Source: a virus
Strand: one strand, 5' to 3'
Virus record (IMG/VR): IMGVR_UViG_3300027985_000703
Location: 1-62,388 of that record
Length of the DNA stretch: 62,388 nt
Shown: one piece after another, positions 5,499-61,054 of the stretch
How the letters are laid out: every line of letters begins with the position of its first letter
Position numbering within the stretch: position 1 is the stretch's first letter
Program-made: the position numbers and the translations under genes
Notes under the pieces: model-generated
The model's input: the letters and a program-made list of their open reading frames with translations, nothing else
The model's database searches: none
Told to the model about the DNA's origin: nothing

Positions 5499-5533
5499 AG
5501 TAAAACTGCAAGCAGTATATAACAGTAACACTG
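5499..5533. promoter_or_regulatory. Paired CAGT-N3-ACTG sites before the portal operon
   Basis: An exact site, CAGTAACACTG, lies at 5523-5533, and a one-mismatch site, GAGTAAAACTG, at 5499-5509; their centres are 24 bp apart. On the minus strand, TATACT lies between them and TATATC begins right after the second, so one or both may serve as a -10 box for the portal gene. The geometry repeats at other operons. Confidence 0.75.
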
Positions 5534-5545
5534 GATAAAACAGCG

Positions 5546-7255
5546 TCACGCGGACATAGCCGAGCGTTTCTTGGACCCGGCCTTGACGAAGCGGTCCAGC
5601 TTGTCCATGAAGGACTTTTTGACCACCTGCTTCTGGTTCACGATGCCAAACTGCATCAGCATCTGGCCGATCCACGCCAGCGCGTCCACCTGGTCGTCGT
5701 GTTTGCCCATGGGGAACGTCAGCAGTTCTGCGATCAACGCCTCGACCCACAACGCGCCACGGGGGAAGAACACCTTGCCCTGCTCCATACGACCCTGGAT
5801 GGGTCGGGCGCGGGTCTGTTTGTCCTTGCCCCGGGTGCGCAGCTTCTCGTAGGGGAGGTGCAGCTTGGTTTCCTCGATCCGTTTCAGCAGGAACGGCTCC
5901 AGGGTCATGTCGATGTGGCCGGTTTCGACGCCGAATATCTCCGGGTTCCACCGCTTCTGCAGCTCGAACATTTTGTCGATGATGCCCATGGAGTTCCAGC
6001 GCCCACGGTGCAGGTCCAGCAGGTAGATATTCTGCTGCCGGTCCACGCCCACGACCAGGAACACTGAAAAGTCGTTCGCCTCCGACTGGCCGATGGCCAA
6101 GTCCGCCGCCGCGTAGACCCGCATCTCGCCCAGGGGCGGGGTGGTGTCGTAGTAGCGGATCATGTTCTTGGTGAAGTAGTCACCGTCCTGGGACACCGGG
6201 TTCTGCTGGTACAGCGCCTCCCAGTCTCGCGGCAGCATGGTCCGTTTGATACGGTTCAGCGCCGGCAACGGGTACCGGGCGGTGTGCAGCGCCTCGCCCT
6301 GCTTCCGGTATTCCTCGTCATGCACGGCGATGGCCGGGTAGCGGACCACTTCCCAGCGGTCGGCGTCCTCGGGCCACACGCCGGAGTCGGCCATCTCCCG
6401 TTCGGCCTCTTTCATGACCTCGAGCAGCCAGCCGGACAGGTCGTCCTCATGCCAACGGGTCTGGATGACGAGCACACCGCCGCCGGGTGCCAGTCGGGTG
6501 TAGAAGGTGGACGAGTACCAGTCCTTCACCTTCTGCCGGGTGGTCTCCGACTCGGCTTCCTCGCGGTCTTTTACCGGGTCGTCGATGATGCCGAGGTGCG
6601 CGCCCCGGCCGGTGATCGGGCCCTGCACACCGGCAGCCGTAAAACCGCCGCCTTCGGTGGTCAACCACTTCTCAACCGCCTTCGACTGCTTCGAGAGCCG
6701 GGTTTTGAACACCGTCTGGTACTTTTCCAGCTCCATCATGTCCCGAACCTTGCGCGAGAAGTCCTCGGCCAGGCCGCCGGAGTAGGAACAGGCGATGACT
6801 TCGTGCTTCGGGTTGCGCCCCAAGTACCATCCGGGGAAGGTTTTGGAGCCGATTTCCGATTTCCCGTGCCGCGGGGGCATGAAAATCATCAGTCGGGGCG
6901 ATTCCTTGCGCTCGATGGCCTCGGCAAACCGTTCCAGGCGGGCGCAAATGTCCGCATGCACCCAACCAGGGTCATAGTCGGGGTTCATGCGCTTGATGAA
7001 CGGCAGCAACCGGCGACGTGCCAGTACCCGCTCGGCCAATTCCTGCTTGATGGACGCCTGCAGGTCGAACGCCGTCTGTTCTTCCTGGACGATGCGCTCT
7101 TTCTCCGCCGCGATATTTACCTGGTCGACCGGCAGCGCGTCCTGGTACACCGCCACGCCTTGCTGGATGGCGCATTTCGAGCACAAACCCTCGCTGTAGT
7201 AGAGGCGGGCAGGGTGGGTGCGGCCACAGGACTCGCAAAAGAAGGTCTCACTCAC
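5546..7255 (-). CDS. terL: Terminase large subunit
   Basis: This 569-residue packaging motor has an N-terminal zinc-finger-like set of cysteines (C7, C10, C25, C28), an ATPase with Walker A 'MPPRHGKSE' at about 126-134 and Walker B 'LGIIDDPVKD' at about 221-230, and a C-terminal RNase H-fold nuclease with Asp residues in 'AADLAIG' and 'GKHDDQVDAL'. It pumps DNA into the procapsid through the portal and cuts the concatemer. The GTG at 7255 was chosen because GGAGG lies 7 bases upstream; an ATG at 7270 lacks such a site. The start overlaps the TerS stop by 8 bases. Confidence 0.93.
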   Translation of the reverse strand: MSETFFCESCGRTHPARLYYSEGLCSKCAIQQGVAVYQDALPVDQVNIAAEKERIVQEEQTAFDLQASIKQELAERVLARRRLLPFIKRMNPDYDPGWVHADICARLERFAEAIERKESPRLMIFMPPRHGKSEIGSKTFPGWYLGRNPKHEVIACSYSGGLAEDFSRKVRDMMELEKYQTVFKTRLSKQSKAVEKWLTTEGGGFTAAGVQGPITGRGAHLGIIDDPVKDREEAESETTRQKVKDWYSSTFYTRLAPGGGVLVIQTRWHEDDLSGWLLEVMKEAEREMADSGVWPEDADRWEVVRYPAIAVHDEEYRKQGEALHTARYPLPALNRIKRTMLPRDWEALYQQNPVSQDGDYFTKNMIRYYDTTPPLGEMRVYAAADLAIGQSEANDFSVFLVVGVDRQQNIYLLDLHRGRWNSMGIIDKMFELQKRWNPEIFGVETGHIDMTLEPFLLKRIEETKLHLPYEKLRTRGKDKQTRARPIQGRMEQGKVFFPRGALWVEALIAELLTFPMGKHDDQVDALAWIGQMLMQFGIVNQKQVVKKSFMDKLDRFVKAGSKKRSAMSA

Positions 7256-7748
7256 CCGGAACCTCCACATACTCGCTCGGGGCGAGGGATATGGTCTGCC
7301 CGGTCATGCGCAACAGGTCTTCGTCGCTCATCCCCTCCAGCTGGCCGCGGCTGGTGACCTGGACCTCCACCTTCTCGGGGCTGGCGAGGCCGTGCAGCTT
7401 GACCAGCGAGTCCACCGCTTTGATTTCCTCGGTGGCCGTGGCGGCTTTGGCGTGCGCCTCCAGGTACAGCACCGTCGCGTCGTTGCGGGTGAACTCGATG
7501 GCGCCGGCGGCGATGGCTGTCTGGCGTGACATCTCCCGGAAGTAGGCCAGGGCGTCCTGGACCTCGGGCATTCGGGACAGGTCCACCACTGCCCGCTGGG
7601 GGGTGCTGTACCCGGCAGCCCGGGCGGCGGCCAGGGGGTTGAGCCCACGGGTCCGGTTCAGGACGTAGGCTTCTTCTTGCGAGGTGAGGCGACGGATGCC
7701 CAGCCCCGCATAGTGGGCCTTCATCACGTCCGGGGTGAGATCATCCAT
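7248..7748 (-). CDS. terS: Terminase small subunit
   Basis: This 166-residue protein has an N-terminal helix-turn-helix (LTSQEEAYVLNRTRG...LAAARAAGYSTPQRA), which resembles the DNA-recognition part of small terminase subunits, then a helical oligomerisation region and a short acidic tail. It recognises the packaging start site and loads TerL. The ATG at 7748 was preferred over a GTG at 7769 that lies inside the palindrome. It is the first gene of the leftward packaging operon. Confidence 0.85.
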   Translation of the reverse strand: MDDLTPDVMKAHYAGLGIRRLTSQEEAYVLNRTRGLNPLAAARAAGYSTPQRAVVDLSRMPEVQDALAYFREMSRQTAIAAGAIEFTRNDATVLYLEAHAKAATATEEIKAVDSLVKLHGLASPEKVEVQVTSRGQLEGMSDEDLLRMTGQTISLAPSEYVEVPGE

Positions 7749-7760
7749 AGGCGTCGTATC

Positions 7761-7771
7761 CAGTAGCACTG
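7761..7771. promoter_or_regulatory. CAGT-N3-ACTG site at terS
   Basis: CAGTAGCACTG lies 12 bases before the terS start codon. It is flanked by a GTATCC...GGATAC inverted repeat (7755-7760 and 7781-7786). At this distance a bound protein would cover the start of transcription or the ribosome site, which fits repression better than activation. Confidence 0.7.
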
Positions 7772-8073
7772 TATCTGACAGGATACAGGACGGCTACAAG
7801 TCGAGCAATGAATGGCGTGGGAAAAGGGACTGGGGCAAAATTTGAAAAATTTTTTACAGGGCACTCGCTTTCAAAGGGGGGTGCCCTGTTGCTTTTGTTC
7901 AGGGATAGGGGTCAAACGATACCGTTGAGGGATAGGGGATACTTGTTGGGGGTCGAGGGCTGGTATATGGGTGTCGCCTGTGGAGGGCGCGCCCGGTTGC
8001 TTTCGAGTTTGGTTTCGGCTCCCCAACTCTCGAGCGTTGAACCTACTTAGGAGTCCCATTAAGGAGTAACACC
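7772..8073. other. Divergent intergenic region terS / early genes
   Basis: About 300 bases with no credible gene. It holds a perfect 9-bp inverted repeat (ACAGGGCAC 7856-7864 with GTGCCCTGT 7881-7889, loop 16) followed by TGCTTTTG, a possible terminator or leader hairpin; two copies of AGGGATAGGGG (7901-7911 and 7928-7938); and TATATG at about 7963, a weak -10 candidate for the rightward genes. No exact CAGT-N3-ACTG site faces the rightward genes here. Confidence 0.5.
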
Positions 8074-10465: not shown

Positions 10466-10879
10466 ATGAGTGATTTCGACGCCCTGCTCGATGACAGCAT
10501 CGAGAACGAGGCCTTCGGGGAGGAAACCAACCCGCTGGCGGAGCTGCTGCAACAGCCTGTAGTGGCTAAGGCCAAGCGCCGGATCGTGGCATTCAGCCGC
10601 GAGTATTTTGCCTGGCTGAAAGAGATGGCCAAGCCCCGCAAGGCCGTCGCAGTGCTAAAGGCCGTGCTCACTGAGCGCGAGGCCAAGGAGCAATGCCCGT
10701 GCTGTGGTGGCACCGGCGAGTATGTGGGTGCGGCTTACACCACCCGTTGCGCCCGTTGCAAGGGCAAGGGCTACCTGTTCCCGGCCGACATCATGGCCCA
10801 TCGCAAGTGGGAGGACGCCCGCGCTGCCGGCTTACCGCGTGTCCGGGATGACTTTGGCGCGGCCTTCAACTTCGCCTAA
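10466..10879 (+). CDS. DnaJ-type zinc-finger protein
   Basis: This 137-residue protein has an acidic N-terminus (DFDALLDDSIENEAF), a basic helical middle, and a C-terminal CPCCGGTGEY...TRCARCKGKGY element at about residues 73-96. The two C-x2-C-x-G-x-G halves copy a single DnaJ zinc-binding repeat and would hold one zinc ion. No J-domain is present, so it is not a full co-chaperone. Such stand-alone fingers occur in phage proteins that touch nucleic acids or host chaperones. AAGGAG precedes the ATG. Confidence 0.7.
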   Translation: MSDFDALLDDSIENEAFGEETNPLAELLQQPVVAKAKRRIVAFSREYFAWLKEMAKPRKAVAVLKAVLTEREAKEQCPCCGGTGEYVGAAYTTRCARCKGKGYLFPADIMAHRKWEDARAAGLPRVRDDFGAAFNFA

Positions 10880-10941
10880 CCGAAGGCCAATCACCCTCCT
10901 ATCAACCTCTCGCCGCTGTAACGCCTTCTGAGTTCTTTTTA

Positions 10942-10976
10942 CAGTGAGACTGCACACGCATTCGACAGCAACCATG
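10942..10976. promoter_or_regulatory. CAGT-N3-ACTG site with degenerate partner
   Basis: An exact CAGTGAGACTG lies at 10942-10952, and a weak copy, CAGCAACCATG, is centred exactly 24 bp further (10966-10976). TATTCT at 10980-10985 is a -10 candidate for rightward transcription into the small genes at 11246 onward. Confidence 0.55.
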
Positions 10977-11090
10977 CGGTATTCTTCTACCTGACCCACA
11001 CGGGATGGCCCACCAGTCTGTGTTCCCGTTAGCACTGAAGAGCACCCGCTTCGGGGTGTGCGAGTGCGGCCGACCCGCGGTGGTACGCAG

Positions 11091-11250
11091 CGGTGCGGTG
11101 CGGTGCGGTGCGGTGCGTGGATGATGGTTGGTGGATGGGGGTTGGTGGATGATGGATGGAGGGAGCTGGAAGGGGTTGGGGGATGGGCGGTGGATGGAGG
11201 TCGATGGATGTTGGTCGTTGGTCGTTGGATGGAGGGTGGTGGTTGATGAA
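11091..11250 (+). repeat. CGGTG pentamer repeat and G-rich GGAT/GGTT tract
   Basis: More than five tandem copies of CGGTG (11091-11116) are followed by about 120 bases of plus-strand sequence made almost only of G, T and A (GGATGATGGTTGG, GGGGGTTGGTGG, GGTTGGGGGATGGG types). Many G3-G5 runs lie close enough to form G-quadruplexes. With the preceding gap from 10880, this is a 366-base stretch without a gene I would defend. Confidence 0.75.
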
Positions 11251-12123: not shown

Positions 12124-12712
12124 GGCCTCGATTGAGTGGTCTTGACAAAGGTCCGTGGATAGTATCTAACGATGGTGCCACATGGAGATGGTCGAGGGTC
12201 GAGATGCGGGACATGTGGGACAAAACATAGGACTCGTACCGTATCGGTCCCGCATTGTACCGCATTCCGCCCACATTCCTGAACCTGAGTCCCATTTCCA
12301 AGTGGCACCTACATGAGTCTGCTAAGTGGCTGATTTACCAAGGGTTTTGGGAGGGTAACAGCAACCGAAAATGCTCTCTGTACCGATAGTCCCAGATGTA
12401 CCGGTATTTTTTTCAGTTTGGCCTGAGTTAGCACTTTTGATTTTCGATTTTCATTTTCCAGCCGATGCCGAAAAAATGTGGGAATGTGGGACATCCGGTA
12501 CAGAGTGTCCTAAGTCCCTGTTCCATCTACCTTTTTCGACTGTACCGCATTCCTGAAAAAGCGGTACAGATGCGGTTCACGTCCCACTTGTCCCGCTTGT
12601 CCCATATCTACCGTCGCTCGGCCACCAACAAAATTTCATGCAACTTTATTCGTGGACAGGGCACAGATATTCCTGTACTACTGGACGCCGCTTTCCACAG
12701 GGGGACTAGGGT
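12124..12712. other. Repeat-rich non-coding region, candidate origin/control region
   Basis: 589 bases hold no credible gene but many short repeats. GGGACA occurs at 12208 and 12217 (9-bp step) and 12488. Its complement TGTCCC occurs at 12589 and 12598 with a CGTCCC at 12580, again at 9-bp steps. GTACCG or CGGTAC occurs at 12236, 12257, 12380, 12398, 12496, 12542 and 12562. An AT-rich block lies at about 12405-12460. TTGACA at 12142 with TATCTA at 12163 is a possible promoter, though the 15-bp spacer is short. The pattern resembles iteron origins; a multi-site control region is the alternative. Confidence 0.6.
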
Positions 12713-13078
12713 ATGCTCGACAAGGACCTGCGCCGGTCATGGACCGACGAAATGAACGCCACGCTGCTGGCCGAGTACGGGGTGACACCCAACGCGGAGC
12801 TGGCGGCCAAGCTCGGGAAATCGCAGAAGTCGATGCGCAACCACATCGCTCGGCTGCGTCGCATCAGCGGCATTTCGTTCCCACCCATCCCGCCGCTGGT
12901 ACCCAAACCAGAACCAGAACCGGTGCCCGTCACCCCAGCCCCGGTGCCCGTTGCCGGCGACCCGGTCCACCTGCTGGCGAAGGAGTTCGCCCGTTGGCAG
13001 GTAACGGTGGCCGAGATGCAGCAACACATCGACCGGTTGACTGATGAGCTCCGGTCTCTCAAGGAGGAAGGCAAATGA
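12713..13078 (+). CDS. HTH DNA-binding protein with proline linker and coiled coil
   Basis: This protein has 121 residues. Residues about 8-50 (RSWTDEMNATLLAEYGVTPNAELAAKLGKSQKSMRNHIARLRR) look like a SANT/Myb or GcrA-type helix-turn-helix. A P/V/E linker (residues 57-80) leads to a C-terminal coiled coil (88-120), so it is probably an oligomeric DNA binder. It starts just after the repeat-rich gap, with GGGGGA about 9 bases before the ATG, which makes it a good candidate to bind the GGGACA or GTACCG repeats. That pairing is inference from position. Confidence 0.65.
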   Translation: MLDKDLRRSWTDEMNATLLAEYGVTPNAELAAKLGKSQKSMRNHIARLRRISGISFPPIPPLVPKPEPEPVPVTPAPVPVAGDPVHLLAKEFARWQVTVAEMQQHIDRLTDELRSLKEEGK

Positions 13079-13326
13079 TACTGATGCACAGCGCGTTCAA
13101 CGCCGCCGGCCAACGGGTCGGCGTCATGTTGTCCCTCGCCGGTAGGAACGTGAACCTGGGCGGTGACTTTCTGTCCCGCCCCGGGATACGCGATTTCGTC
13201 GCCAGCCGCCCGGCCCGCTACTGGGTGACCGAATTCCGGGACGCGACCCGCAAGGTAGCCGACTGGAAAGACGTGATGCGTGGCCTGCGTCAGGCGGTCC
13301 GGTTCCAGCGGGCGATTCTGAAATGA
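13075..13326 (+). CDS. Hypothetical protein
   Basis: An 83-residue basic protein; its ATG overlaps the previous stop (ATGA), with AAGGAGG upstream. It carries a glycine-containing strand region and ends in a basic helix (RGLRQAVRFQRAILK). No family recognised. Confidence 0.55.
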   Translation: MILMHSAFNAAGQRVGVMLSLAGRNVNLGGDFLSRPGIRDFVASRPARYWVTEFRDATRKVADWKDVMRGLRQAVRFQRAILK

Positions 13327-13508
13327 GCGCCCGTAAACCCTACGCCGACGACTGGCAGTCGCTCGGTGATGGTGTGGAGTACAGCCCCCACCTGAAACTG
13401 TACTGGTGCAAGGGCCGGGTATACGACGAGCTGTCGGCCATGCACAACGGCATCATCGGCCCTGGTGCCCAGCTGCGCCGGATAATCGCGGAGGACCGGC
13501 AATGTTAA
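13323..13508 (+). CDS. Hypothetical protein
   Basis: A 61-residue protein rich in Y, W and G (SPHLKLYWCKGRVYDEL). Overlaps both neighbours by four to seven bases, and immediately precedes the six-gene paralogue cluster. No family recognised. Confidence 0.5.
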   Translation: MSARKPYADDWQSLGDGVEYSPHLKLYWCKGRVYDELSAMHNGIIGPGAQLRRIIAEDRQC

Positions 13509-13840
13509 TCAACCGACAGTGGTTGCAGGACCGCAAGGCCTGCGAGCCGGGAGTGGAATGGTTCCTCGAGCAGCAACGCATATTGATGGAGCCGGAGGAC
13601 GTGGAGGCGGACAAGCCGCTCGAGGACATGCTGGTGCTGCGGGCGCTGAGCATGGACCTGTACTGGGCCTCTTTCAACAACATCGACGAGGTGCGGACCA
13701 TCCGCGACTACTGGAAATGGTTCAGCTTGAACCTGGCCGTCGCCTACACCGCCGAGGTCCAGCAGCTGCAGGCCCGGGTAGCGGACCTGGAAGGTGAGGT
13801 GGCCGCCCAGCGGGCGTTCCTGGAAGATTTCGAGGGGTAG
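13502..13840 (+). CDS. WL-AC-G-WF family protein, copy 1
   Basis: This 112-residue protein is the first of six adjacent paralogues. Residues 7-21 carry the family signature W-L-x4-A-C-x2-G-x2-W-F (WLQDRKACEPGVEWF). A second motif, Y-x2-W-F (RDYWKWFSLNLA), lies near residue 70 and a coiled coil fills the C-terminus. The ATG was chosen because it places the signature at the same N-terminal position as in the other copies. Function unknown. Confidence 0.7.
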   Translation: MLINRQWLQDRKACEPGVEWFLEQQRILMEPEDVEADKPLEDMLVLRALSMDLYWASFNNIDEVRTIRDYWKWFSLNLAVAYTAEVQQLQARVADLEGEVAAQRAFLEDFEG

Positions 13841-13843
13841 TGT

Positions 13844-14128
13844 ATGTGGCTTACTGAACAGTGGTTGGTAGCCAACTGGGCCTGCGACGCTGGCATTGCA
13901 TGGTTCAACGACAGCCTGCGCCGCCGGACCCGTGACGAAGACAAAGCCTCGGTGGCCATGGTCACCGTTTGGTTGCGGGTGGACATGAAGCAGGCGTACC
14001 AGGACCGCGACTTCGATAAGGCCGCGCACCTGATGGGCTACCTGGCCTGGCTGTGTCAAAGGCTGGCCGAGCAAAACAGCCGCCAATCCAAGGAGCAGGC
14101 GGACAAGGAGGTGCAAGATGCAGATTGA
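13844..14128 (+). CDS. WL-AC-G-WF family protein, copy 2
   Basis: A 94-residue paralogue: signature WLVANWACDAGIAWF at 7-21, a middle 'VWLRVDMKQAY' shared in form with copies 4 and 5, and 'GYLAWLCQRLAEQ' near residue 66. It ends in a charged helix. Its stop lies 11 bases inside copy 3. Confidence 0.7.
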   Translation: MWLTEQWLVANWACDAGIAWFNDSLRRRTRDEDKASVAMVTVWLRVDMKQAYQDRDFDKAAHLMGYLAWLCQRLAEQNSRQSKEQADKEVQDAD

Positions 14129-14426
14129 CGAACACTGGCTGCGCGTAAGGAACGCCTGCCTTGATGGACAAGGCTGGTTCCAGAAGGAGTTTGGCAAATA
14201 TATAGAGGCCACGGACCGCGGCCCCACCGTGGAGGATGTGACCTGCGCCCTGAGCGAGGCGATCACCAACGCCTTCGACCCAGAGTGGCAGAACGCGGAA
14301 GGCGCCCGGGTGCTGGGCTACCTGGAGTGGCTGGCCGACCGCCTGGCCGACGACCTGGTGAAAGCCAAGGCGGACATCGCCGCGCTGCAGGCCGAGCTGG
14401 CCCAATTCACCGAAGGGGGTGAGTGA
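14118..14426 (+). CDS. WL-AC-G-WF family protein, copy 3
   Basis: A 102-residue paralogue: signature WLRVRNACLDGQGWF at 7-21 and 'GYLEWLADRLADD' near residue 75, followed by a coiled-coil end. Its ribosome site (AAGGAGG) lies within the end of copy 2. Confidence 0.7.
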   Translation: MQIDEHWLRVRNACLDGQGWFQKEFGKYIEATDRGPTVEDVTCALSEAITNAFDPEWQNAEGARVLGYLEWLADRLADDLVKAKADIAALQAELAQFTEGGE

Positions 14427-14731
14427 TGATCGCCATCGACTTGTTATGGCTGCGCCAGCGCCATGCCTGCCTGGAAGGTCAGCGGTGGTTCATCGGCGCA
14501 GACAAACAGTACAGCATCACGCCCGGCCAGCCGGTGCCGACCATGATAGTCATGGGCTGGTTAAAGAGCGACATCCGCGCAGCGGCCTTCAACGGGGAAC
14601 AGACCGCCGTAGTTAACCTGACCAGCTATGTGGACTGGCTGATGATTCACGTCCTGTGCGAGTGCAGCCGGCAGGAGAAGATCGTCCACGAGCTGGAACG
14701 CAAACTCAAAGCCATGGAGGGCCGCCCATGA
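14423..14731 (+). CDS. WL-AC-G-WF family protein, copy 4
   Basis: A 102-residue paralogue: signature WLRQRHACLEGQRWF at 9-23, middle 'GWLKSDIRAAA', and 'SYVDWLMIHVL' near residue 68, the most diverged second motif of the rightward-middle copies. ATGA overlap with copy 3. Confidence 0.7.
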   Translation: MMIAIDLLWLRQRHACLEGQRWFIGADKQYSITPGQPVPTMIVMGWLKSDIRAAAFNGEQTAVVNLTSYVDWLMIHVLCECSRQEKIVHELERKLKAMEGRP

Positions 14732-15072
14732 ACATCAACCTGCAATGGCTCCAGGAGCACCGAGCCTGCCCCGAGGGCCGGGCCTGGTTCATCCACACCT
14801 GCCGCGCCCATGGTCGAGACCACAACAGCGACGTGCCCTTGGAGCTGGTCACCGGCTGGCTGCGCGTCGCCATCGCCAAAGCGTCCCGGGCCCAGCGGCC
14901 GATAAGCGTGTGGGGACTGGCCGGCTACCTGGAATGGCTGTGCGATACCCTGGCTCAGGAAGCGAAAGCCAACAAGCAACTGCGCTGGCCCGAGGGGCTG
15001 ATCACCGCGGACTTTGCCGAACTGGAAGCCCGTGTCACTACCATGCCAAAAGGAGAGACCCCATGCGAATAA
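14728..15072 (+). CDS. WL-AC-G-WF family protein, copy 5
   Basis: A 114-residue paralogue: signature WLQEHRACPEGRAWF at 7-21, middle 'GWLRVAIAKAS', and 'GYLEWLCDTLAQE' near residue 68. It has the longest tail after the second motif. Overlaps copies 4 and 6 by 4 and 10 bases. Confidence 0.7.
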   Translation: MNINLQWLQEHRACPEGRAWFIHTCRAHGRDHNSDVPLELVTGWLRVAIAKASRAQRPISVWGLAGYLEWLCDTLAQEAKANKQLRWPEGLITADFAELEARVTTMPKGETPCE

Positions 15073-15383
15073 CGATGAAATGGCTCGAGCGTAACAGCGC
15101 CTGCTACAACGGCAAGCACTGGTTCATAAGCAACTTCCCGCAACACGAGACCTTGCCCCCGGAACACTGCGATGTGGTGCGCAAGCTCGACGAACAAAGC
15201 GATTCGGCCCGGGCCGGAGATCATGTACCTACGGCCGTAATTTTGGACAGCTACATCCTCTGGATGGCGATCAACCTGGGCGATGAGGCCACGCGCCAGC
15301 AATACGATAACGGGGCCTTGCAGCAGCGCATCAACGACCTGCGCAACCAGCTGCAAGCCGCGGGTATGGAGCCGTGCGAATGA
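15063..15383 (+). CDS. WL-AC-G-WF family protein, copy 6
   Basis: A 106-residue paralogue: signature WLERNSACYNGKHWF at 7-21 and 'SYILWMAINLGDE' near residue 64, then a coiled coil. It is the most diverged copy between the motifs. AAAGGAG precedes the ATG. A small membrane protein gene starts in its stop codon. Confidence 0.7.
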   Translation: MRITMKWLERNSACYNGKHWFISNFPQHETLPPEHCDVVRKLDEQSDSARAGDHVPTAVILDSYILWMAINLGDEATRQQYDNGALQQRINDLRNQLQAAGMEPCE

Positions 15384-15532
15384 ACCTGCTGACTCAAATC
15401 ACCTGGGAGGACCTGAAAACCGCGCTGCTGCTGGTGTTCCTGGCCATGGTGTCCTGTTCCGGCGCGGTGCTGCTGCTGGGCCTGCGCATCAAACACGTCC
15501 GTGACAGGAGGGAACGTGACCGGAGTAAATGA
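15380..15532 (+). CDS. Small membrane protein (50 residues)
   Basis: The gene starts in the ATGA that ends copy 6. It has one clear membrane segment at residues about 15-35 (ALLLVFLAMVSCSGAVLLLGL) and a very basic C-terminus (RIKHVRDRRERDRSK), which predicts a cytoplasmic tail. Coupling to the six-copy cluster suggests a shared task. Function unknown. Confidence 0.6.
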   Translation: MNLLTQITWEDLKTALLLVFLAMVSCSGAVLLLGLRIKHVRDRRERDRSK

Positions 15533-16019
15533 TTTCTGGACAGTCTCTCGCATAGAGACCATCAAGCGTGAGACCGGATACCTGCAGGATGCCGAACTGG
15601 CCAAGGCCATCGGCGTGAGCAAGGGAGCCCTGCGCACCAAACAGTACGAGCTGGGGTTGTTATTGCGCCTGCCGAAGCGACCGCTGGACGCATACCACCG
15701 CTACGAGTACAGCACCAAGGTGTTGCTGGACAAGGGCTACCTGAAACACCTGGAGCCAATGCCCTTCACCGCCGAGGGCCCCTGGTCCACCTACGACCTG
15801 CGCCGGACACAGTATTTCTACGGCCTGGTGACGGTGGAGCGCCTGGCCAAGGCCCTGGGCCGCTCGCCCGATGCCGTGCGCGCCAAGGTGCATGACATGA
15901 ACTGGGACATCGGCAAGAGCTTCGAGTACCGCCGCAACGCCCGCGGGGTGCCGAACTGGTTGCGCATCTTCAATGACATGCGTACCGCCACCATCCAACT
16001 GCAACAGGAGGTTGCATGA
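15516..16019 (+). CDS. HTH DNA-binding protein
   Basis: This 167-residue protein appears to have two helix-turn-helix units: 'LQDAELAKAIGVSKGALRTKQYELG' (about residues 22-46) and 'TVERLAKALGRSPDAVRAKVHDM' (about residues 107-129). The GTG at 15516 was chosen because AGGAGG lies 4 bases upstream; it overlaps the preceding membrane gene by 17 bases. The repeated HTH suggests recognition of two half-sites or a role as a small regulator. No named family recognised. Confidence 0.65.
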   Translation: MTGVNDFWTVSRIETIKRETGYLQDAELAKAIGVSKGALRTKQYELGLLLRLPKRPLDAYHRYEYSTKVLLDKGYLKHLEPMPFTAEGPWSTYDLRRTQYFYGLVTVERLAKALGRSPDAVRAKVHDMNWDIGKSFEYRRNARGVPNWLRIFNDMRTATIQLQQEVA

Positions 16020-17017
16020 AAACCGAACCGTTCGACCTGGATAAGGCGCTCAAGGGCCACCCCCTCATCACCAACGCCGGCGAGAAAGCGGTCAACTTCA
16101 GTCCACGGATCCCAGGCCGCTGCACCCTCCCGGGCTACGCCTTCGCGGCCGTCGTAAACGGAGTGTACCGAACCTACACCGACAAAGGGGTGTACCACCG
16201 ACCCAACCCGAACGGCCCCAACGACCTGCTACTGGACGTAAGCGAGGTCCACCCGTTCAAGGTCGGGGATGTTGTGCGCCCGACCAAGGGCAGCACCCCG
16301 GCCGAGTACCTGGGTAAGCAACCGCTCGTCCAGGTTGTCAGTACCGACCGCGAAACCTTCCGCGGCCGCGTGAACGGCGTTGAGCGCCTGTTCCGCTACA
16401 CAGGCTGCGCGCACCTGAACGACGGCGACTGGGAGTTGAGCACCCCGAAACCGGCCCCGATGCCGGCACCGCCGACCCACGCACCGGCACCGCCGACCCA
16501 CGCAGTGTTCGACCCGGTGCAGGCGCTGAATGGTCACCCGCTGATCCTCAGTAGCGGGGACGAGGTAATCAATTTCAAGCGCCGGCGCTGGACCCACCCG
16601 GACGACGACTTCCCGTACAAGGGAGAGTTCACGAAGGCCGACGACACCGTGGTCAAGCTGCTGTTCACCCGCCACGGGGTATCCAACACAAATGGGGCTC
16701 ACTTGCGGATGGACATGACCCGGCCGTGGGTTGCCCCGTTCGACCTGGACAAGGCGCTGGCGGGCCACCCGCTGGTGACGCGGGACGGCCGCCCAGTGTC
16801 CAATTTCCGCGAGCGCAAGACGGCACCCGCCGGGACGACGTACCCGTTCCTGGCTGATGTACCGTGCAAAGGTCACGAGCAAGACAAGGCCGAAGAAGCC
16901 TACACAGCCAAGGGCGAATACTGCGTGGACGGGGGTTTTGACGGCCGGACCAGCCGCGGCCGCGACCTGTTGCTGGACATCCGCACGCTGTACCGGAAGA
17001 AAGTTTGTAAACGCTGA
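16016..17017 (+). CDS. Three-repeat protein (FDLDKAL-GHPL module)
   Basis: This 333-residue protein has three copies of one module, starting at residues about 6, 165 and 242: F-D-x3-A-L-x-G-H-P-L, then G-x3-[VI]-x-N-F. The modules end in 'LLLD'-type strands. Between the first two lies an extra domain (77-145; GDVVRPTKG...) and a P/A linker with two APPTHA copies. Proteins carrying one such module are widespread in phages as hypotheticals. A terminator follows. Function unknown; the repeats suggest a binding or adaptor role. Confidence 0.7.
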   Translation: MKTEPFDLDKALKGHPLITNAGEKAVNFSPRIPGRCTLPGYAFAAVVNGVYRTYTDKGVYHRPNPNGPNDLLLDVSEVHPFKVGDVVRPTKGSTPAEYLGKQPLVQVVSTDRETFRGRVNGVERLFRYTGCAHLNDGDWELSTPKPAPMPAPPTHAPAPPTHAVFDPVQALNGHPLILSSGDEVINFKRRRWTHPDDDFPYKGEFTKADDTVVKLLFTRHGVSNTNGAHLRMDMTRPWVAPFDLDKALAGHPLVTRDGRPVSNFRERKTAPAGTTYPFLADVPCKGHEQDKAEEAYTAKGEYCVDGGFDGRTSRGRDLLLDIRTLYRKKVCKR

Positions 17018-17041
17018 TTGTTGTTGAGTGTGAAGCCAGTT

Positions 17042-17073
17042 CCCCCGGACCGCACCCCGGCCGGGGGCTTTTT
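17042..17073 (+). terminator. Rho-independent terminator
   Basis: CCCCCGG and CCGGGGG pair around a 12-base loop, followed by CTTTTT. It ends the 12713-17017 gene run. Confidence 0.85.
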
Positions 17074-17093
17074 ACCGCCACTAGGAGCCATGA

Positions 17094-17465
17094 ATGAACC
17101 CCATCCTACCGCACACCGCGCAAGTTGACCTGGACGACCAGGCCCGCACCAAGGAACTGTTAGCCCGTTGCGCCAAAGCCGCCAACCTGCTGTACGACCC
17201 GGAACACGGCCTGGCCTCCAAGGACGGGCTGGCCTGGGAGCCGTGGAACCCGCTGGAGGACGACGACCAGGCCCAGGCGCTCGCCATCACCTTCGGGTTG
17301 GAGATGGCGCTGTTCGCCAAGGTGCGCGCCCTGATTGGGCCGGACCAGTACATGATGCTGGAGGCGTGTGTCACCGGCCGCGACCAGCTCGAAGTAACCC
17401 GGACCCTGCTGGTCTACGGGACCATCCAACTGGCCGAAGAAAAGCGTCAAGGAGCACTGTCATGA
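17094..17465 (+). CDS. Hypothetical protein
   Basis: A 123-residue acidic, helical protein (LDDQARTKELLARCAKAANLLYD...). It starts right after a terminator with TAGGAG as ribosome site, so it must depend on read-through or an unseen promoter. An ATGA couples it to the HTH gene that follows. No family recognised. Confidence 0.6.
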   Translation: MNPILPHTAQVDLDDQARTKELLARCAKAANLLYDPEHGLASKDGLAWEPWNPLEDDDQAQALAITFGLEMALFAKVRALIGPDQYMMLEACVTGRDQLEVTRTLLVYGTIQLAEEKRQGALS

Positions 17466-17731
17466 AGAAACTGTCCGCCAAGCAATTCCTGAACGAGGAA
17501 CTGCGCCACCGCCTGCGCCACATGCGCGAAGACCTGGGGCTGTCCCGGCCGAAGATGGCCGAGCTGTTAGACCTGCCAGCGACCACGCTCAAGAACTATG
17601 AGCTGGGCTACCGCGAAACGTCCGCGCTGGTACTGCTGGCGGTGCTCAACCACGACGACGCCAGCATCCGCGCCTGGGGCGAGTACCTGACCAAGGTCGA
17701 CGCGCCGGTGCCGAAGGTGGGGGGCAACTGA
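17462..17731 (+). CDS. Cro/CI-type HTH protein
   Basis: An 89-residue single-domain protein; residues about 15-60 (LRHRLRHMREDLGLSRPKMAELLDLPATTLKNYELGYRE) are a classic HTH_3/XRE fold with the recognition helix 'PATTLKNYELG'. No dimerisation or peptidase domain, so it resembles Cro or a toxin-antitoxin-type regulator. It is a second possible binder of the dispersed palindromes, though none lies in its own gene cluster. Confidence 0.7.
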   Translation: MKKLSAKQFLNEELRHRLRHMREDLGLSRPKMAELLDLPATTLKNYELGYRETSALVLLAVLNHDDASIRAWGEYLTKVDAPVPKVGGN

Positions 17732-18018
17732 TGCGATACGACAACATCGAAACCGCCAAAATGTGGACCCTGAACACGGGGCATGTGTCCCGTGACGAAG
17801 CCGCCATGCTGGACGACGCCAATTGCACCATCAAAGCCATGGACAGCGACTACGGGTGGTTGATTTACACCCACCAGGGGCTTGGCGAGGAAGAACTGGT
17901 GGAGTACCCGAATGTGATAGCCATCATGCGCGCCGCCGTAGACGCCGGCATCGAGTGGCTGCGCTTCGACCGCGACGCCGAGCTGTACCCAGAACACTTC
18001 CCGACATTCGACTGGTAG
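17731..18018 (+). CDS. DUF5983-like protein
   Basis: A 95-residue acidic protein with a conserved-looking core: 'DYGWLIYTHQG' near residue 40 and 'GIEWLRFDRDAE...PTFDW' at the C-terminus. This pattern resembles DUF5983, found in phages and plasmids with unknown function. Stop-start overlap with the HTH gene. Confidence 0.55.
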   Translation: MRYDNIETAKMWTLNTGHVSRDEAAMLDDANCTIKAMDSDYGWLIYTHQGLGEEELVEYPNVIAIMRAAVDAGIEWLRFDRDAELYPEHFPTFDW

Positions 18019-48100: not shown

Positions 48101-49457
48101 CGCGCAAGCCGGCGTCAACCATCTGCGCGACATCGAAATCGCCTGCGTCCAGATGGTCATCCGCGTTGATGTGTACCGCCTGTTCAACGGCCATCTGTGC
48201 CGCACCGACCACGCCGCCGACGCCTGCGCCGGTAGCAAAGCCCTTAACCGCCCCCACGACTTTACCCGCCTGGGCGGCGACGGTTTTTTCCACCGCCTCG
48301 CCAACCCCGGCAGCTTTCATGAATGAATGCACGGGCACCAAGGCGGTAGCCACACCCAAGCCGGCACCGGCGGCACCACTGGCCAGTGGGGAGTTGCCAA
48401 TCTGCTCGTCGCTGAGACCGGCATTCTTCATGCGGGCGTAGGCGGAACCGGTGGCCTGCGTGCCGGCGGACAGCGCCCCCGGGACAGTAGCGCCGATCAG
48501 GGCACCAGACTTTTCGACAGCAGCGATGCGGGCCCCCATACCGGGGTAGGCCATGGCCTTAGACACCGCTTGGGCTCCGAACTTGCGGGTCAGCGCCCCA
48601 ATGGCCGCGTGACGGGCGGCAACAACCCCGACACCGGCGCCCGTCATAGCCAGGATGAGGTCCGGGATCGCCATCAGCACGTTTTCCCCCAAAACCTCGG
48701 CCCCGTAGGTGAGCGCACGGTCGGTTTTTTCTTTGAGCGATAGGTGTTTGCCGTCTTCGCCGGTGTAAATGTCGGTGAAGCTGGCCACCCGCGCCGGGTT
48801 AACCGCCAGATCAAGGGTGTTGTCCTGCCGAACCTGTTGGCCGTAGTCAGCCATGTGCTGGTCGCCCAGCTTGCGGCCGGCAAACTCGGCTGCGGCACCG
48901 AGGACCATTTGTGTGCCGTCAATCCCGCGGTCTACCGCGTCACGGAACACGCCCTTGCTCTTGCGCGAAGGGACGGGGGCCATCAACGCGGGGTTAGGCT
49001 GGAAGGGGGTGGAGTTATCCCGAACGAACTGGTCAACGGCACCGGACAGCTCGGGGTGCGCGGGATCACGCGGCAAGCCGAGGGAAGCGCGAACGGTGCC
49101 GGACGTGCGGGCACCCTCGATAGCAGGGTCAATGCCATCAAACGCAGTCGGGGTAGCGAGGCCAAGCTGAGCCAATTGAACGCCGATGTTGTTGCCTTCG
49201 GCGTCCAGGTAATCGCCCTTGCCCCGGTTGTGGCCGCCACTTTCGCCGTCCCGAATGTGGATCTGCTCGGTGATAACCTGGGCTATGAGGCCGGCCACCT
49301 GACCGGGGACAGTGGCCTTTTCCTGGGAATTGAAGCCGGCGGCACGAACACCTGGGCGCTGCCCATCAATGAACGCGGTGTCGCCATCGTAAAATTCAGT
49401 GTTCGATGATCGGGGGTCGTCGCCGTTGTGGGTGACGATAATATCTTTCCAGCCCAT
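42111..49457 (-). CDS. Giant internal virion protein with nuclease-like N-terminus
   Basis: This is a 2,448-residue protein. Residues about 1-130 resemble a staphylococcal-nuclease fold: 'YDGDTAFIDGQRPGVRAAGFNSQEKA' gives Asp, Arg and Glu in catalytic spacing, and 'HNRGKGDYLDAEGNNIGVQLAQLGLA' the second Arg and closing helix. Next come Ala/Gly-rich hydrophobic stretches (about 250-480), then about 1,300 residues of charged coil, and a C-terminal helical domain (ATAARYLLFSAVASIPETA; DPRFQVFASLKKFIYGLVDRV) resembling large polyvalent phage proteins (LPD38-like, tentative). It probably leaves the capsid with the DNA to form a channel. No transglycosylase or RNA polymerase motif was found. Confidence 0.75.
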   Translation of the reverse strand: MGWKDIIVTHNGDDPRSSNTEFYDGDTAFIDGQRPGVRAAGFNSQEKATVPGQVAGLIAQVITEQIHIRDGESGGHNRGKGDYLDAEGNNIGVQLAQLGLATPTAFDGIDPAIEGARTSGTVRASLGLPRDPAHPELSGAVDQFVRDNSTPFQPNPALMAPVPSRKSKGVFRDAVDRGIDGTQMVLGAAAEFAGRKLGDQHMADYGQQVRQDNTLDLAVNPARVASFTDIYTGEDGKHLSLKEKTDRALTYGAEVLGENVLMAIPDLILAMTGAGVGVVAARHAAIGALTRKFGAQAVSKAMAYPGMGARIAAVEKSGALIGATVPGALSAGTQATGSAYARMKNAGLSDEQIGNSPLASGAAGAGLGVATALVPVHSFMKAAGVGEAVEKTVAAQAGKVVGAVKGFATGAGVGGVVGAAQMAVEQAVHINADDHLDAGDFDVAQMVDAGLRGALTGGAINVGAASLGHATAYARKNLAEYVDQAAMAERTALERDYLDRAMEDGRQATPDGQVSTENMVGAALRADPTKAEAGEVAPTPGDVLKDVGEQRTVSGSGKMHAVQADDIEPLPQVRYDEVARMVTGPDGKLLPLNEVGKLLQTGELSDHELVAYLADPTARKVGSVFSTAPADAVNLHLRQRVEDLRTELSAKYKESRRGGTKYEETERERAVLKAATDALTKGEYKDTDGQVRKRQFKDDISRMKAENSVLSDVLRVFERNVERDDAYASGRQYDWRATYQEAVDAQRRPTKPDPAPLGGERKAGVSDAELPTNTLVDVVRKLPGGEQAVRKVAELVGQAEQMIAALPADKQDSARAQVEATVRARLFKYRDEQQAKAASDETVGDSAELGYGKELETQDEFTQDAGDEFSQDQQVDMMQSDRESGDTWGGNDAQDTLGTGELSVTDGEHLNAVDAIEAVNHYRRQTGYARSVVGQLQAMLPGVDLTGVLGEYNTRQANKLHTEYPEIEATVTAYSQKTGAKAGVRTGSEKDAAVILTRSDQASERAAADHGDVQQHKDVRKVTPKMLQTLKDRIAAGDNAGAVEVLERHGLFPDGVAVDGTAVDRRPLHERAALAGNKRANAAGKAALWLEEEASDGSATPAAFDAQRLTREGLIDQQRMDSNGDLQLTEVGKNGETRQAGFKEVLARAFSEGIAKLLDSNPKLRITDNMIPDSTVIYRDPRSPEAFWTWGDVKPALQKIYERQDQAALLKSEDIGYLRSELNRQNRRAAKGEPADKGFATKLTTRVAELEAERDAAIAGLYRDDDRSAGWAKEGGPDDRGAYFDPETDPTARYVNRDEVVYREQDGTIAKVDRDQLDKDTNDSHAHDSDPTRLPDEAPAQLASKGWKPLRSVQDGKPARHQAEDPAVELAQTKDQLAAAHKNLALHEELAALSEAERNALPNRLREVDQELAYLERDLNNTTAPENTTGGEAPVQQKAAPRQVEDIDTQLHANQVERVTASGQLTKAVERGSITREQAHSWLSRIGQSDAELQAQRGRILQEVQQRRAELLNEQARLRRLVSGMDAQGRSRVARPEVEATVQRLEQRALELERQQLAAKEQAAKTSPADQEPKAKLTEAPATQSVGRRYKPGSEAQQEAVANAVEVVRERSDAVAAVGDKLRVFDRIQQLQKQLDKPAPRNTLAERIRRRAPNEIAELQARIDAIENSIRAQPNLERNVYNRLRMEANRLKNEQAKLEQRLKDLPPAAQRDTSRIETELAALKQRVLSEGLDEAKLRQEHAELQKQMDAADADLRSKREALEQLRDHDAESQSKAAKVNQEALESAPKAVKQAIERLTNGEVEGDSVNATKLVAGLRKKQQTVFGNNRHHGARRVINGLSKVFRQTTKGRLGRISGLLREKSDRFEVNWRLRQQRWVSWMAGVLHGADGKTPKGLQRGYEDLVDGKNTLLARKLSRELGKIVAEIKKVDPTFELDGAPTVLNLGRIHERMAEFREVLNQNGVVKVDELVKALHLSEGVPGFEVFAGSETVKSILGTRKDLAKLKAALPKLRELGFLRTDAPEVITGFVRSAARYAEWGKEYGLLRKTKNGKDYFDSSFQYKALMETISESDRSEVRQLMSAITGSMGHNLPNWVRAVNAGFFAATAARYLLFSAVASIPETAVVAVRAKRGLRAQLQVLTSDLYRLAISDRGGLRALADELGIIDTEVTRHAMQQLYMMDELTVGKTASKVAGVMFKMNGQVALTNLQRMQSLVQAQGFLKEHSAKAAAGDPTSQRYLKELQIDPEKAAETSSPEYKDALHRFVLQAMTNPEAGAMPLWMSDPRFQVFASLKKFIYGLVDRVHMGVYNEGRNGSISQAMAMTAGFAVASMALGSLAEWLREMIKYPPLLTRGRGMPQSFDEKLARVFNATGMQAHAQLLASPRVAYEHEGMFSAMLAGMNPTIEWLMTDLADPSKKAGTKLAEALPVSNQLPWAKAWVMDMVGGNGR

Positions 49458-49471: not shown

Positions 49472-49494
49472 CAGTAATACTGCACACCATTCTA
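49472..49494. promoter_or_regulatory. CAGT-N3-ACTG site at giant gene
   Basis: CAGTAATACTG (49472-49482) lies 14 bases before the start codon. On the minus strand TAGAAT (49494-49489) precedes it, so the site covers the start of transcription. A terminator just upstream makes this an independent unit. Confidence 0.7.
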
Positions 49495-55803: not shown

Positions 55804-55872
55804 ATGATAGCAGTGTTACTGGGGAAATAGAATACAGTTACACTGTAAAAACAACGTGCCCGGTGAGATAAT
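55804..55872. promoter_or_regulatory. Divergent capsid/fibre promoter region with paired palindromes
   Basis: CAGTGTTACTG (55811-55821) and TACAGTTACACTGTA (55833-55847, a perfect 15-base palindrome with central 3) have centres 24 bp apart. Leftward, TATCAT (55809-55804) lies 7 bp from the first centre. Rightward, GATAAT (55867-55872) lies 27 bp from the second centre. One pair thus faces both the capsid and the fibre operons. Confidence 0.8.
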
Positions 55873-56273: not shown

Positions 56274-58376
56274 ATGGCCTTTACTCTGACGATTACCCCT
56301 CCGGCAAACGGGGCTAGTGCCGTGGTGCAGCCGGGCGGGAGCACGACCATGACCGTGGCGGCGAGCGCACCCCCCACGGCGGTGAGCGTGGCCGCTACAC
56401 CGGGACAAGTGCCAGCCGCCGTGATCGCCGCGACCTTGGCAACCATGGCCGCCAACGAAGCTGCCGCAGCCGCCAGTGAGGTCGCCGCAGCCAACAGTGA
56501 AGCTGCCGCAGCCGCCAGTGAGGTCGCCGCAGCCAACAGTGAAGCTGCCGCAGCCAACAGTGAAGCTGCCGCAGCCGCCAGTGAAGCTGCCGCAGCCGCC
56601 AGTGAGGTCGCCGCAGCCAACAGTGAAGCTGCCGCAGCCAACAGTGAAGCTGCCGCAGCCAACAGTGAAGCTGCCGCAGCCGCCAGTGCTACATCAGCTT
56701 CGGGCAGTGCCACCACCGCCACCACCAAAGCGGGGGAGGCGGCCGCAAGTGCTACCAGCGCATCGGCTAGTGCCACCACCGCCACCACGCAGGCGGGGGT
56801 AGCCACCACGCAGGCGGGCAACGCAAGCGCCAGCGCAGCAGCAGCCGCCGCATCCGCTGCCGCTGCCGCCACAGCGGTCGACAACTTCGATGACACCTAC
56901 CTGGGCGCAAAAACCAGCGACCCGGCCCTAGACAACGATGGTGACCCCCTGACCATCGGGGCCATGTACTTCGACAGCGTGGGCGGCCAGATGCGCCTAT
57001 ACACCGCCATCGGTTGGGTAGATATTTCAACCGCGGTGGCCACGACACTGGAACGATTCCGGTTCACCGCCAGCGCCGGGCAGACCGTGTTCAGTGGTGC
57101 CGACGATAGCGCCCGCACGCTGACCCTGACCCCTGCCTTTGCCGCCGTGCTGCTTAACGGGGCGCTGCTGGATGAATCCGACTACACCGTGACGGGTAGC
57201 AGCGTGACCCTGGTCAGCGGCGCAACCGCCGGTGATGAGCTGGTCGTACTGGCATTCGGGGTGTTCCAGGCCGCAGACACCGTAAGCAAGAGCCTAGGCG
57301 GCACCTTCGACGGTCCGGTAAACCATGCGGGGACACTGAAAAGGGGCGGTGTCGACGTGGCGGTGGAAACCGGTCTGGGGCTGCGCAACAAGATCGTAGA
57401 TGGCCGGTTTGATTTCTGGTACGAGGGCACCAGCCAGACCACGATGGGCTACGGCTCCGCAACCATGTGGGTGTCCCACAACGCCGGGTCGACAAAAGTC
57501 CACTCGCGGCAGGCGCTAACTCCCGGTGTAGACCTCCCGGCGGTCGAGTGCCCCTCAGCCAAGCACTACTCGCGCACGGTCGTTACCTCCGTTGCGGGGG
57601 CGTCAAACAATGCTTTGCTGTACCACCGGATCGAAGACGTGCGTGTGCTGGCGGGTAAGAACGCAGTGCTGTCGTTCTATGCCCGCGCCGACGCCCCAAA
57701 GAACATGACCGCCGAGCTGAACCAGCATTTCGGTAGCGGGGGCAGCGCCAATGTTGAAGGCATTGGGACCACGAAACTGGCGCTGACCACCGAGTGGGCG
57801 CGGTACAAAGTGCCGGTGGCCATCCCGAGCGTGCAGGGGAAGACCATTGTCGACGGCACTAATTGTTACCTGCGAGTGCTCTTGTGGTTCGACGCCGGCA
57901 GCGACTACGCCGCCCGGACAGATTCTCTGGGCCAACAGTCCGGCACCTTCGACATTGCCTGCGTGCAGCTGGAAGAGGGCACGGAAATGACGCCGTTCGA
58001 GGAATTGCCGTTGAGCTTGAGCATGGCCCGGGTGGACAGGTACTACGAAACCTCTTACCCCCACGAAACCGTGTTGGGGGCCATCACCTACAACGGGTCG
58101 CATGGCGTTCGGGCCGCCGCAGCTACCGTCACGCTGCAGTGCGGGATACGGTTCCGCGCCCAGAAACGGGCCTTGCCAGCGGTCGCTATATATAACCCGT
58201 CCACGGGGGCTTCCGCCTCGGTTCGGGATGCCTCCGCCTCGACAGACGTGGCCGTTACATCCCCCGTCAGCGGCGAAGGGTACAGCCGAAACGGACTGCT
58301 AGCCATCACCCTTGCGACTACGGCGACGGCGATTAACGCCTATTACCTGCATTTCGTGGCAGACGCCCGCCTCTAA
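56274..58376 (+). CDS. Tail fibre with alanine heptad repeats
   Basis: This 700-residue protein has a strand-rich N-terminus (about 1-60). Residues about 62-138 are eleven heptads of the E-[AV]-A-A-A-[AN]-S type, then further A/S/T repeats to about 200, which form a trimeric coiled shaft. A connector (FDDTYLGAKTSDPALDNDGDPLTIGAMYFDS) and two strand-rich domains follow, the last one (FDFWYEGTSQTTMGYG...; 'TFDIACVQLEEGTEMTPFEELP') being the carbohydrate-module-like tip seen in podovirus fibres. Confidence 0.8.
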   Translation: MAFTLTITPPANGASAVVQPGGSTTMTVAASAPPTAVSVAATPGQVPAAVIAATLATMAANEAAAAASEVAAANSEAAAAASEVAAANSEAAAANSEAAAAASEAAAAASEVAAANSEAAAANSEAAAANSEAAAAASATSASGSATTATTKAGEAAASATSASASATTATTQAGVATTQAGNASASAAAAAASAAAAATAVDNFDDTYLGAKTSDPALDNDGDPLTIGAMYFDSVGGQMRLYTAIGWVDISTAVATTLERFRFTASAGQTVFSGADDSARTLTLTPAFAAVLLNGALLDESDYTVTGSSVTLVSGATAGDELVVLAFGVFQAADTVSKSLGGTFDGPVNHAGTLKRGGVDVAVETGLGLRNKIVDGRFDFWYEGTSQTTMGYGSATMWVSHNAGSTKVHSRQALTPGVDLPAVECPSAKHYSRTVVTSVAGASNNALLYHRIEDVRVLAGKNAVLSFYARADAPKNMTAELNQHFGSGGSANVEGIGTTKLALTTEWARYKVPVAIPSVQGKTIVDGTNCYLRVLLWFDAGSDYAARTDSLGQQSGTFDIACVQLEEGTEMTPFEELPLSLSMARVDRYYETSYPHETVLGAITYNGSHGVRAAAATVTLQCGIRFRAQKRALPAVAIYNPSTGASASVRDASASTDVAVTSPVSGEGYSRNGLLAITLATTATAINAYYLHFVADARL
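56457..56687 (+). repeat. Eleven 21-bp repeats in fibre gene
   Basis: Tandem units GAAGCTGCCGCAGCC[GCC/AAC]AGT and GAGGTCGCCGCAGCCAACAGT, coding for seven residues each. Nearly identical DNA units allow unit gain or loss by slippage and so a change of shaft length. Confidence 0.85.
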
Positions 58377-60713: not shown

Positions 60714-60733
60714 TGACCGGGCAACAACAACAA

Positions 60734-60755
60734 CAAGGGGCCTGCGGGCCCCTTC
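60734..60755. terminator. Terminator between tailspike and holin
   Basis: AAGGGGCC-TGCG-GGCCCCTT hairpin, between converging genes, with AACAACAACAA before it giving a partial U-rich run on the minus strand. Confidence 0.75.
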
Positions 60756-60758
60756 ATG

Positions 60759-60938
60759 TTACTTCAACCATTTGTCCGGCAGCACCATACCCAGGAAACC
60801 AGCCAGGCCGATACCAAAGGTGATGACCACCTCCTGGTGCTCGGGGCTCCAGTGCGCGCCCAGCGCCGCAGCGCCGATGACAATGCCGCGCCAGGTGGAC
60901 GGCTCTTTCAGTCGGTTGAGGATGTAACCAAGGACCAT
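60759..60938 (-). CDS. Holin
   Basis: This 59-residue protein has 'MVLGYILNRLKEPSTWRGIVIGAAALGAHW', two hydrophobic segments (about 17-29 and 36-53) and a short polar end (PDKWLK). The 'NRLKEPSTWRG...' start and the G-rich second segment match a family of small phage holins. It would permeabilise the inner membrane at the end of infection, releasing the lysin (candidate at 713-1156). AAAGGAG lies 7 bases before the ATG. It is alone on the minus strand among fibre genes, with its own palindrome-bearing promoter region. Confidence 0.78.
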   Translation of the reverse strand: MVLGYILNRLKEPSTWRGIVIGAAALGAHWSPEHQEVVITFGIGLAGFLGMVLPDKWLK

Positions 60939-60992
60939 ATCGTCGCTCCTTTAGTGGACGCCGCCCGGGGCGGGTGGCACCGCTACAAGGTA

Positions 60993-61054
60993 CAGTAAAA
61001 CTGCTTGCTTCGCGAGCAGGAATACTGTAATTGCCGGCGCTCGGGTGCGATAAT
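60993..61054. promoter_or_regulatory. Divergent holin/fibre promoter region with paired palindromes
   Basis: CAGTAAAACTG (60993-61003) and one-mismatch CAGGAATACTG (61017-61027) have centres 24 bp apart. GATAAT at 61049-61054 begins 27 bp from the second centre, the same distance as at the other fibre promoter (55867). A hairpin CTGCTTGC-TTC-GCGAGCAG lies between the two sites. Confidence 0.75.

Follow-up and report, generated by a model that had tools for sequence, protein, structure and literature searches.

A dispersed set of often paired CAGT-N3-ACTG palindromes at podovirus promoters, probably operators of a CI-type repressor

The viral record IMGVR_UViG_3300027985_000703, the whole 62,388 bases of which are called the window here, carries a podovirus gene set (portal, terminase, capsid, internal virion protein, DNA polymerase, primase, helicase, thymidylate synthase, and dCMP deaminase). 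The palindrome CAGT-N3-ACTG recurs along it before the operons, often in pairs, and raises the question of what binds there and with what effect. An earlier note on this DNA, made from the letters alone, proposed that these dispersed paired sites let one phage protein determine the state of the whole genome, and suspected the protein encoded at 34397–35041. The location of the sites in gaps, their recurrence in relatives, and the homology of that protein to CI support the proposal computationally. Judging from the sequences, it is very probable that about 15 often paired sites at the promoters of nearly all operons serve a genome-wide lysogeny switch as operators, bound by this CI-type repressor.

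Recurrence in gaps and at operon heads

Eleven exact copies of CAGT-N3-ACTG are found in the window, at 5523, 7761, 10942, 26024, 34345, 35087, 42082, 49472, 55811, 55835, and 60993, just where the earlier note had placed them. The comparison with shuffled sequence that it had proposed gives a mean of 0.84 copies and a maximum of 3 under dinucleotide shuffling. All 11 sites are intergenic, with about one expected from the intergenic share of the window (8.7%); the status "intergenic" is approximate, as the gene calls were made with a simple script of our own. At other lengths of the central gap the pattern is rare: CAGT-Nk-ACTG occurs 11 times at k = 3 and zero to two times at each other k from 0 to 7. 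When the window gaps were searched blindly for palindromes, with the motif not supplied, CAGT-N3-ACTG ranked top, with zero coding matches at the threshold. The sites thus lie in gaps and not in genes, as had been claimed. Inside a tail fibre gene, a coding repeat at 56495–56673, in which CAGTGAAGCTG returns at multiples of 21 bp, mimics one-mismatch copies of the motif.

Related records were found by terminase and repressor searches. They are G001, G003, G006, G014, G023 (a Bermanella metagenome bin), G013 (a prophage of Oceanisphaera litoralis; the same element lies in the 202-kb contig G021), G022 (Shewanella gaetbuli), and G005, with the partial records G002 and G004. A primase search in bacterial genomes gave no result. 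Proteins of the relatives are about 26–76% identical to those of the window. Exact copies of the motif number 21 in G001–G007, against 0 for a reversed-pattern control. The operator is extended in the AT-richer relatives, to approximately TTARYAGTRNYACTRYTAA, and its position 2 (A) is invariant in 42 oriented sites of these genomes, which was not a selection criterion.

Conservation at operon heads is the strongest result. The expectation that related phages hold the sites at the same operons is borne out for the portal, primase, giant virion protein, and major capsid protein genes, which have an upstream operator of at least 15 bits at similar distances in 7/7 genomes (all bit scores come from matrices trained on the same genomes that they score). 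The primase operator is 255–260 bp upstream in six of the seven genomes and 299 bp upstream in the seventh. The repressor gene and the 32356-type gene are preceded by an operator in most of them. By contrast, the internal genes compared in the seven genomes (TerL, DNA polymerase, exonuclease, helicase, DUF7307, and several structural genes) have no operator of at least 15 bits in the 320 bp before them. In the relatives, a few sites come out as coding, for example within the end of the portal gene; these probably act as operators for the gene that follows.

The lytic relatives KPP25, AP1, and phiA008 have no detectable repressor homologue, and contain 0–1 copies of the motif. MW202615 is a distant relative with four exact copies; since all four lie inside annotated genes, it was rejected as a carrier of the network.

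Site pairs and promoter elements

Three pairs in the window are 24 bp apart: 42082/42106, the exact pair 55811/55835, and 60993/61017. These had been described correctly. The partner of 5523 had been put at 5499, at 24 bp; it begins at 5498 (GAGTAAAACTG), and the spacing is 25 bp. In total, four of ten window sites have a good partner, always at 24–25 bp, while 0.02 are expected with shuffled flanks. A good partner exists for 41 of the 81 primary sites of seven genomes. The best partner is at 23, 24, or 25 bp in 31 of these 41 cases (0.1 expected with shuffled flanks) and at other spacings in the remaining 10 (1.95 expected); further spacings in G013 are 20, 26, 27, 31, and 33 bp. The fixed 24-bp geometry of the earlier note is therefore too strict, and was dropped as a rule in favor of 23–25 bp. 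Two of its weak partners, at 10966 (CAGCAACCATG) and 35111 (CAGTAACAGCT), have three mismatches in eight positions each and were rejected. The third weak case, the pair at 31879–31889 and 31903–31913 before the 32356 gene, is 24 bp apart. Both of its sites contain two mismatches, but the orthologous place holds a strong 24–25-bp pair in five relatives (G013, G001, G003, G006, and G014), and for this reason it may be a degenerate real pair. Adjacent operators of lambda are 23–24 bp apart. The 23–25-bp pairs match this spacing, which fits cooperative dimers placed side by side.

To relate the sites to promoters, each was oriented to the next gene, and the best sigma-70-type -10 was scored relative to the operator centre. 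The -10 starts 7 bp from the centre in 33 cases, a clustering that is partly built into the operator sequence and is weaker evidence alone, and at 29–31 bp in 26 cases. The 7-bp class reads ACTGTTATAAT or similar, and its TG corresponds to an extended -10. The 29–31-bp class reads ACTGTTGACA and abuts the -35. In the 7-bp class, the -10 ends in a T that is not part of the operator, and this T is enriched (28/42). A pair 24–25 bp apart would place one dimer at each position of one promoter. Both positions carry a site at the capsid promoter of the window (55835 and 55811), the -10 of which is TATCAT.

The predicted operators, with strand unassigned, are distributed over the whole window. At the leftward portal promoter, the site at 5523–5533 (23.6 bits) has the -10-like TATATA/TATACT immediately downstream, and its one-mismatch partner is at 5498–5508 (20.0 bits). 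The operator at 7761–7771 (19.7 bits) is between the divergent terminase (left) and early (right) genes; TerS is likewise preceded by a site in G013, at 43 bp, and by a pair in G022. The rightward operator at 10942–10952 (20.2 bits) is in the gap 10879–11156, and a nearby -10 is not clear. The small-gene block at 12713–25209 was said to lack a strong site. It is not entirely without cover: a weak operator with one mismatch is inferred at 12673–12683 (16.9 bits), about 35 bp before its first gene. The operator of the primase/replication operon at 26024–26034 is 257 bp before the primase start, with the extended -10 TGCTAGTAT. A weak candidate before the exonuclease gene, at 28836–28846 (14.2 bits), is not kept in the relatives.

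The repressor promoter (TTTACG-18-TATACT) has its -10, TATACT, within the operator at 34345–34355; an operator precedes the repressor gene in relatives as well. The site at 35087–35097 (22.3 bits) stands before the 35107 gene and the nucleotide operon, and its G013 counterpart is at 56518. The operator of the leftward internal-virion/tail operon, at 42082–42092, is followed immediately by TATAAT and is kept in relatives; its one-mismatch partner is at 42106–42116. The site at 49472–49482 precedes the giant virion protein gene, as in all seven genomes. The capsid promoter pair is formed by the operator at 55811–55821, which is between the leftward major capsid protein gene and the rightward fibre genes and adjoins the extended -10 TGCTATCAT, and by its exact partner at 55835–55845 on the -35 side. 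The counterpart in G013 is the pair 21188/21212 (24 bp), and the other relatives have either a pair or a single site there. Near the right end, an exact operator at 60993–61003 is between divergent genes, with a one-mismatch partner at 61017–61027 (19.2 bits). The giant gene at 42111–49457 encodes a protein of 2448 amino acids almost without a family match. It is kept in the relatives (22–48% identity), and its product is probably an injected virion protein.

The candidate repressor and competing explanations

The gene at 34397–35041 (plus strand) encodes a CI-type protein of 214 amino acids with a lambda-like helix-turn-helix (HTH) and a C-terminal domain of the CI/LexA fold. By homology and modeling, this protein is likely the operator binder. 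It matches Pfam HTH_31. An alignment of six repressor homologues finds the lambda repressor (3bdn) as the best PDB match, over both domains (E 3.8e-4). The AlphaFold model has a mean predicted local distance difference test (pLDDT) score of 82.6 and a predicted template modeling (pTM) score of 0.53, with the relative placement of the domains uncertain. Each domain was compared with the lambda repressor separately. In the predicted model, the N-terminal domain resembles 1lmb with a structural Z of 11.2, and the C-terminal domain resembles 8gmu with a Z of 12.1 (root-mean-square deviation 2.8 over 108 residues). Foldseek matches to non-CI proteins (phosphonate enzymes) were set aside, as the resemblance is mainly in the common HTH part. 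A single-sequence search for close relatives of the repressor in viral contigs found none, but the alignment-based search did find homologues. In near-complete relative records, these homologues are syntenic, in a conserved gene row with an operator upstream. The repressor gene is within a row of co-directional genes, and there is no divergent cI/cro pair. The suspicion voiced in the earlier note is upheld to this extent: both the sequence and the predicted fold make the protein a lambda-CI homologue, and a site lies at the promoter of its gene.

The sequence preference of the sites can be compared with the recognition helix. In the lambda complex, Gln44 contacts operator position 2. The relatives with the recognition helix NQS, which is like GQS of lambda, have A at operator position 2 in 191 of 212 half-sites. 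The helix of the window protein reads TS, and the window operators have T at position 2 in 18 of 24 half-sites. G005 has the most diverged repressor of the aligned set, with 29% identity to that of the window. A blind search in G005 finds AGT-N1-ACT sites at the promoters of TerS, portal, capsid, giant protein, and primase, and the capsid promoter has a pair 23 bp apart. Examples are at record positions 5736, 8997, 9020, 15667, 52920, and 59323. The flanking TA is retained in 20–22 of 22 half-sites, which supports a shifted centre. It appears from these sequences that G005 has kept the half-site and that, at each operon, its central gap has been reduced to 1 bp from the usual 3 bp.

We infer that the 34397 protein binds the sites, that it does so cooperatively, and that it represses rather than activates. 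Each palindrome would be bound by a repressor dimer, and neighboring dimers 23–25 bp apart would bind cooperatively. The operators would cover host sigma-70-type promoters, one lying in the -35/-10 spacer and reaching the extended -10, and the other bordering the -35 on its upstream side. Since the operators overlap promoter elements, bound repressor would exclude RNA polymerase. Having a site at almost every operon, the phage could shut off early and late genes directly with one protein; the packaging, portal, capsid, giant virion protein, tail, primase, nucleotide, and repressor operons would all be included, and the repressor would limit its own synthesis. The catalytic Lys192 of lambda aligns with the conserved Gly162, and the corresponding segment of the window protein contains no Ser. 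The loss of this Ser/Lys dyad makes self-cleavage unlikely, and release would probably depend on an antirepressor or another signal, not on RecA-stimulated self-cleavage. LexA boxes were considered as an induction route, and only a few scattered intergenic candidates without a common target are seen.

There is a small chance that the operators are bound by another phage protein, Cro-like or of the D5-like HTH type, either alone or in competition with the CI-type protein. Two small proteins, encoded at 12713–13078 and 15516–16019, match the PHROG "transcriptional regulator, D5-like", and could possibly be Cro-like or antirepressor partners. In lambda, CI and Cro share operators. However, only the CI-type protein combines a matching type of recognition helix with a site at its own promoter and a position beside the sites that is conserved in relatives.

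Slightly less probable is that the sites bind an early, middle, or late activator that switches the operons on. Nearly all operons carry a site, and many promoters have a weak -35 and rely on the extended -10, as is often the case for activator-dependent promoters. The sites are in the -35/-10 spacer or over the -10, however, which is not where ordinary activators bind, and the spacers are of the normal 17 bp, unlike the long spacers of MerR-type promoters. Several promoters with a full TTGACA and a good -10 still carry two sites, and the candidate binder is a CI homologue.

The use of host regulators is common among phages, and the motif might have been borrowed from one; this is very improbable. 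The 3.4-Mb genome of O. litoralis contains 38 copies of the motif, nine of them in the 60-kb prophage. The other 3.34 Mb contain 29 copies, which is no excess beside the 112 matches of the reversed pattern. The same motif is found in prophages of different genera. These facts indicate that the network belongs to the phage, and a host regulon was rejected on the genome count. The dispersal of the sites around the whole genome might suit a role in DNA handling (partition, replication, packaging, or recombination) and not in transcription, but this has hardly any likelihood, because the sites keep fixed positions relative to promoter elements and stand at conserved distances from operon heads, and no ParA is found in the window.

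Several points weigh against a lysogeny switch run by the CI-type repressor. G013 also has the TS helix and keeps A at position 2 in 17 of 24 half-sites (71%), so that the match between helix and operator is only partial. The exact sites at 7761 and 10942 have no convincing adjoining -10. The two D5-like HTH proteins encoded at 12713 and 15516 are possible co-binders. The Pasteurellaceae prophages G024 (Pasteurella testudinis) and G025 (Spirabiliibacterium mucosae) are related and encode weak CI-type homologues, and the blind search found no such motif in them. Finally, no integrase, resolvase, or ParA-type protein was found in the window, both ends of which are open. Positions 1 and 62388 lie inside open tail-type genes, and sequence is missing there; the absence of integrase is therefore not proven. 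The relatives with long records carry a tyrosine integrase, which speaks for a temperate lifestyle. In the nearest relative, G013, its slot corresponds to 37221–38007 (plus strand) of the window, where there are three small genes. It can be speculated, rather tentatively, that a family of CI-type repressors governs podovirus genomes through dispersed paired operators, that the operator geometry itself has evolved, and that the window phage, with its network intact and no integrase found, might use it for non-integrative dormancy or as a switch of infection timing.

Comparison with known repressor systems

By its protein this is a CI-type repressor; by its layout it is not a lambda-type immunity region. 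The similarity to lambda CI lies in the architecture and fold of the protein (sequence and predicted model), in palindromic operators of about 17 bp placed over promoter elements, and in paired sites about 24 bp apart, centre to centre. Lambda has two clustered tripartite operators, whereas the sites here are at nearly every operon, including those of late genes. The repressor gene does not belong to a divergent cI/cro pair, and the self-cleavage dyad is lost. Lambda CI directly silences early promoters only, and textbook temperate phages silence late genes indirectly.

The repressor sites of phiC31 are inverted repeats. In the phiC31 and L5 systems, 18–30 repressor sites are dispersed, and the phiC31 repressor is made as three isoforms (PMC4557955). 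The dispersal, the inverted-repeat form, and a repressor that is not paired with divergent cro are shared with the window; the isoforms distinguish phiC31. Mycobacteriophages of cluster A (L5/Bxb1) use one repressor and 20–30 sites across the genome (PMC6550527), which is similar in principle. A monomer binds the 13-bp L5 sites, without cooperativity; these sites are asymmetric, follow the direction of transcription, and for the most part lie away from promoters (PMC9283540, PMC6550527). The sites here are palindromes, often paired, and locked to -10/-35 elements and operon heads. The earlier note had compared the sites in idea with stoperators; they are promoter operators, and membership in that class was rejected because they are symmetric and at promoters (compare PMC6550527).

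C1 of phage P1, which is a plasmid prophage, silences lytic genes through 22 dispersed operators with a 17-bp asymmetric sequence, and its late genes are under the control of the activator Lpa (PMC8546580). The dispersed operators are alike, but the window motif has a different sequence and is symmetric. In SP-beta, MrpR has a tyrosine-recombinase fold and is the master repressor on a repeated 15-bp element, SPBRE, at several promoters (PMC10516654). A master repressor on a repeated element is common to both cases, while the candidate of the window has the CI fold and is an unrelated protein. The network thus works like the dispersed operators of P1, phiC31, L5, and SP-beta, and is a member of none of those tested, since site symmetry, promoter position, or repressor fold differs. 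No paper describing it was found in the open-access literature searched.

The network offers a sequence test for temperate members of this podovirus group, the nearest named isolates of which (KPP25-like) have neither the motif nor the repressor. Seemingly, every promoter is held by one CI-type repressor through a simple repeated operator–promoter design, as opposed to the indirect silencing of late genes. With many natural operators per phage and several host genera, these genomes could be considered as a data set on the co-evolution of repressor and site, including an apparent 2-bp change in dyad spacing.

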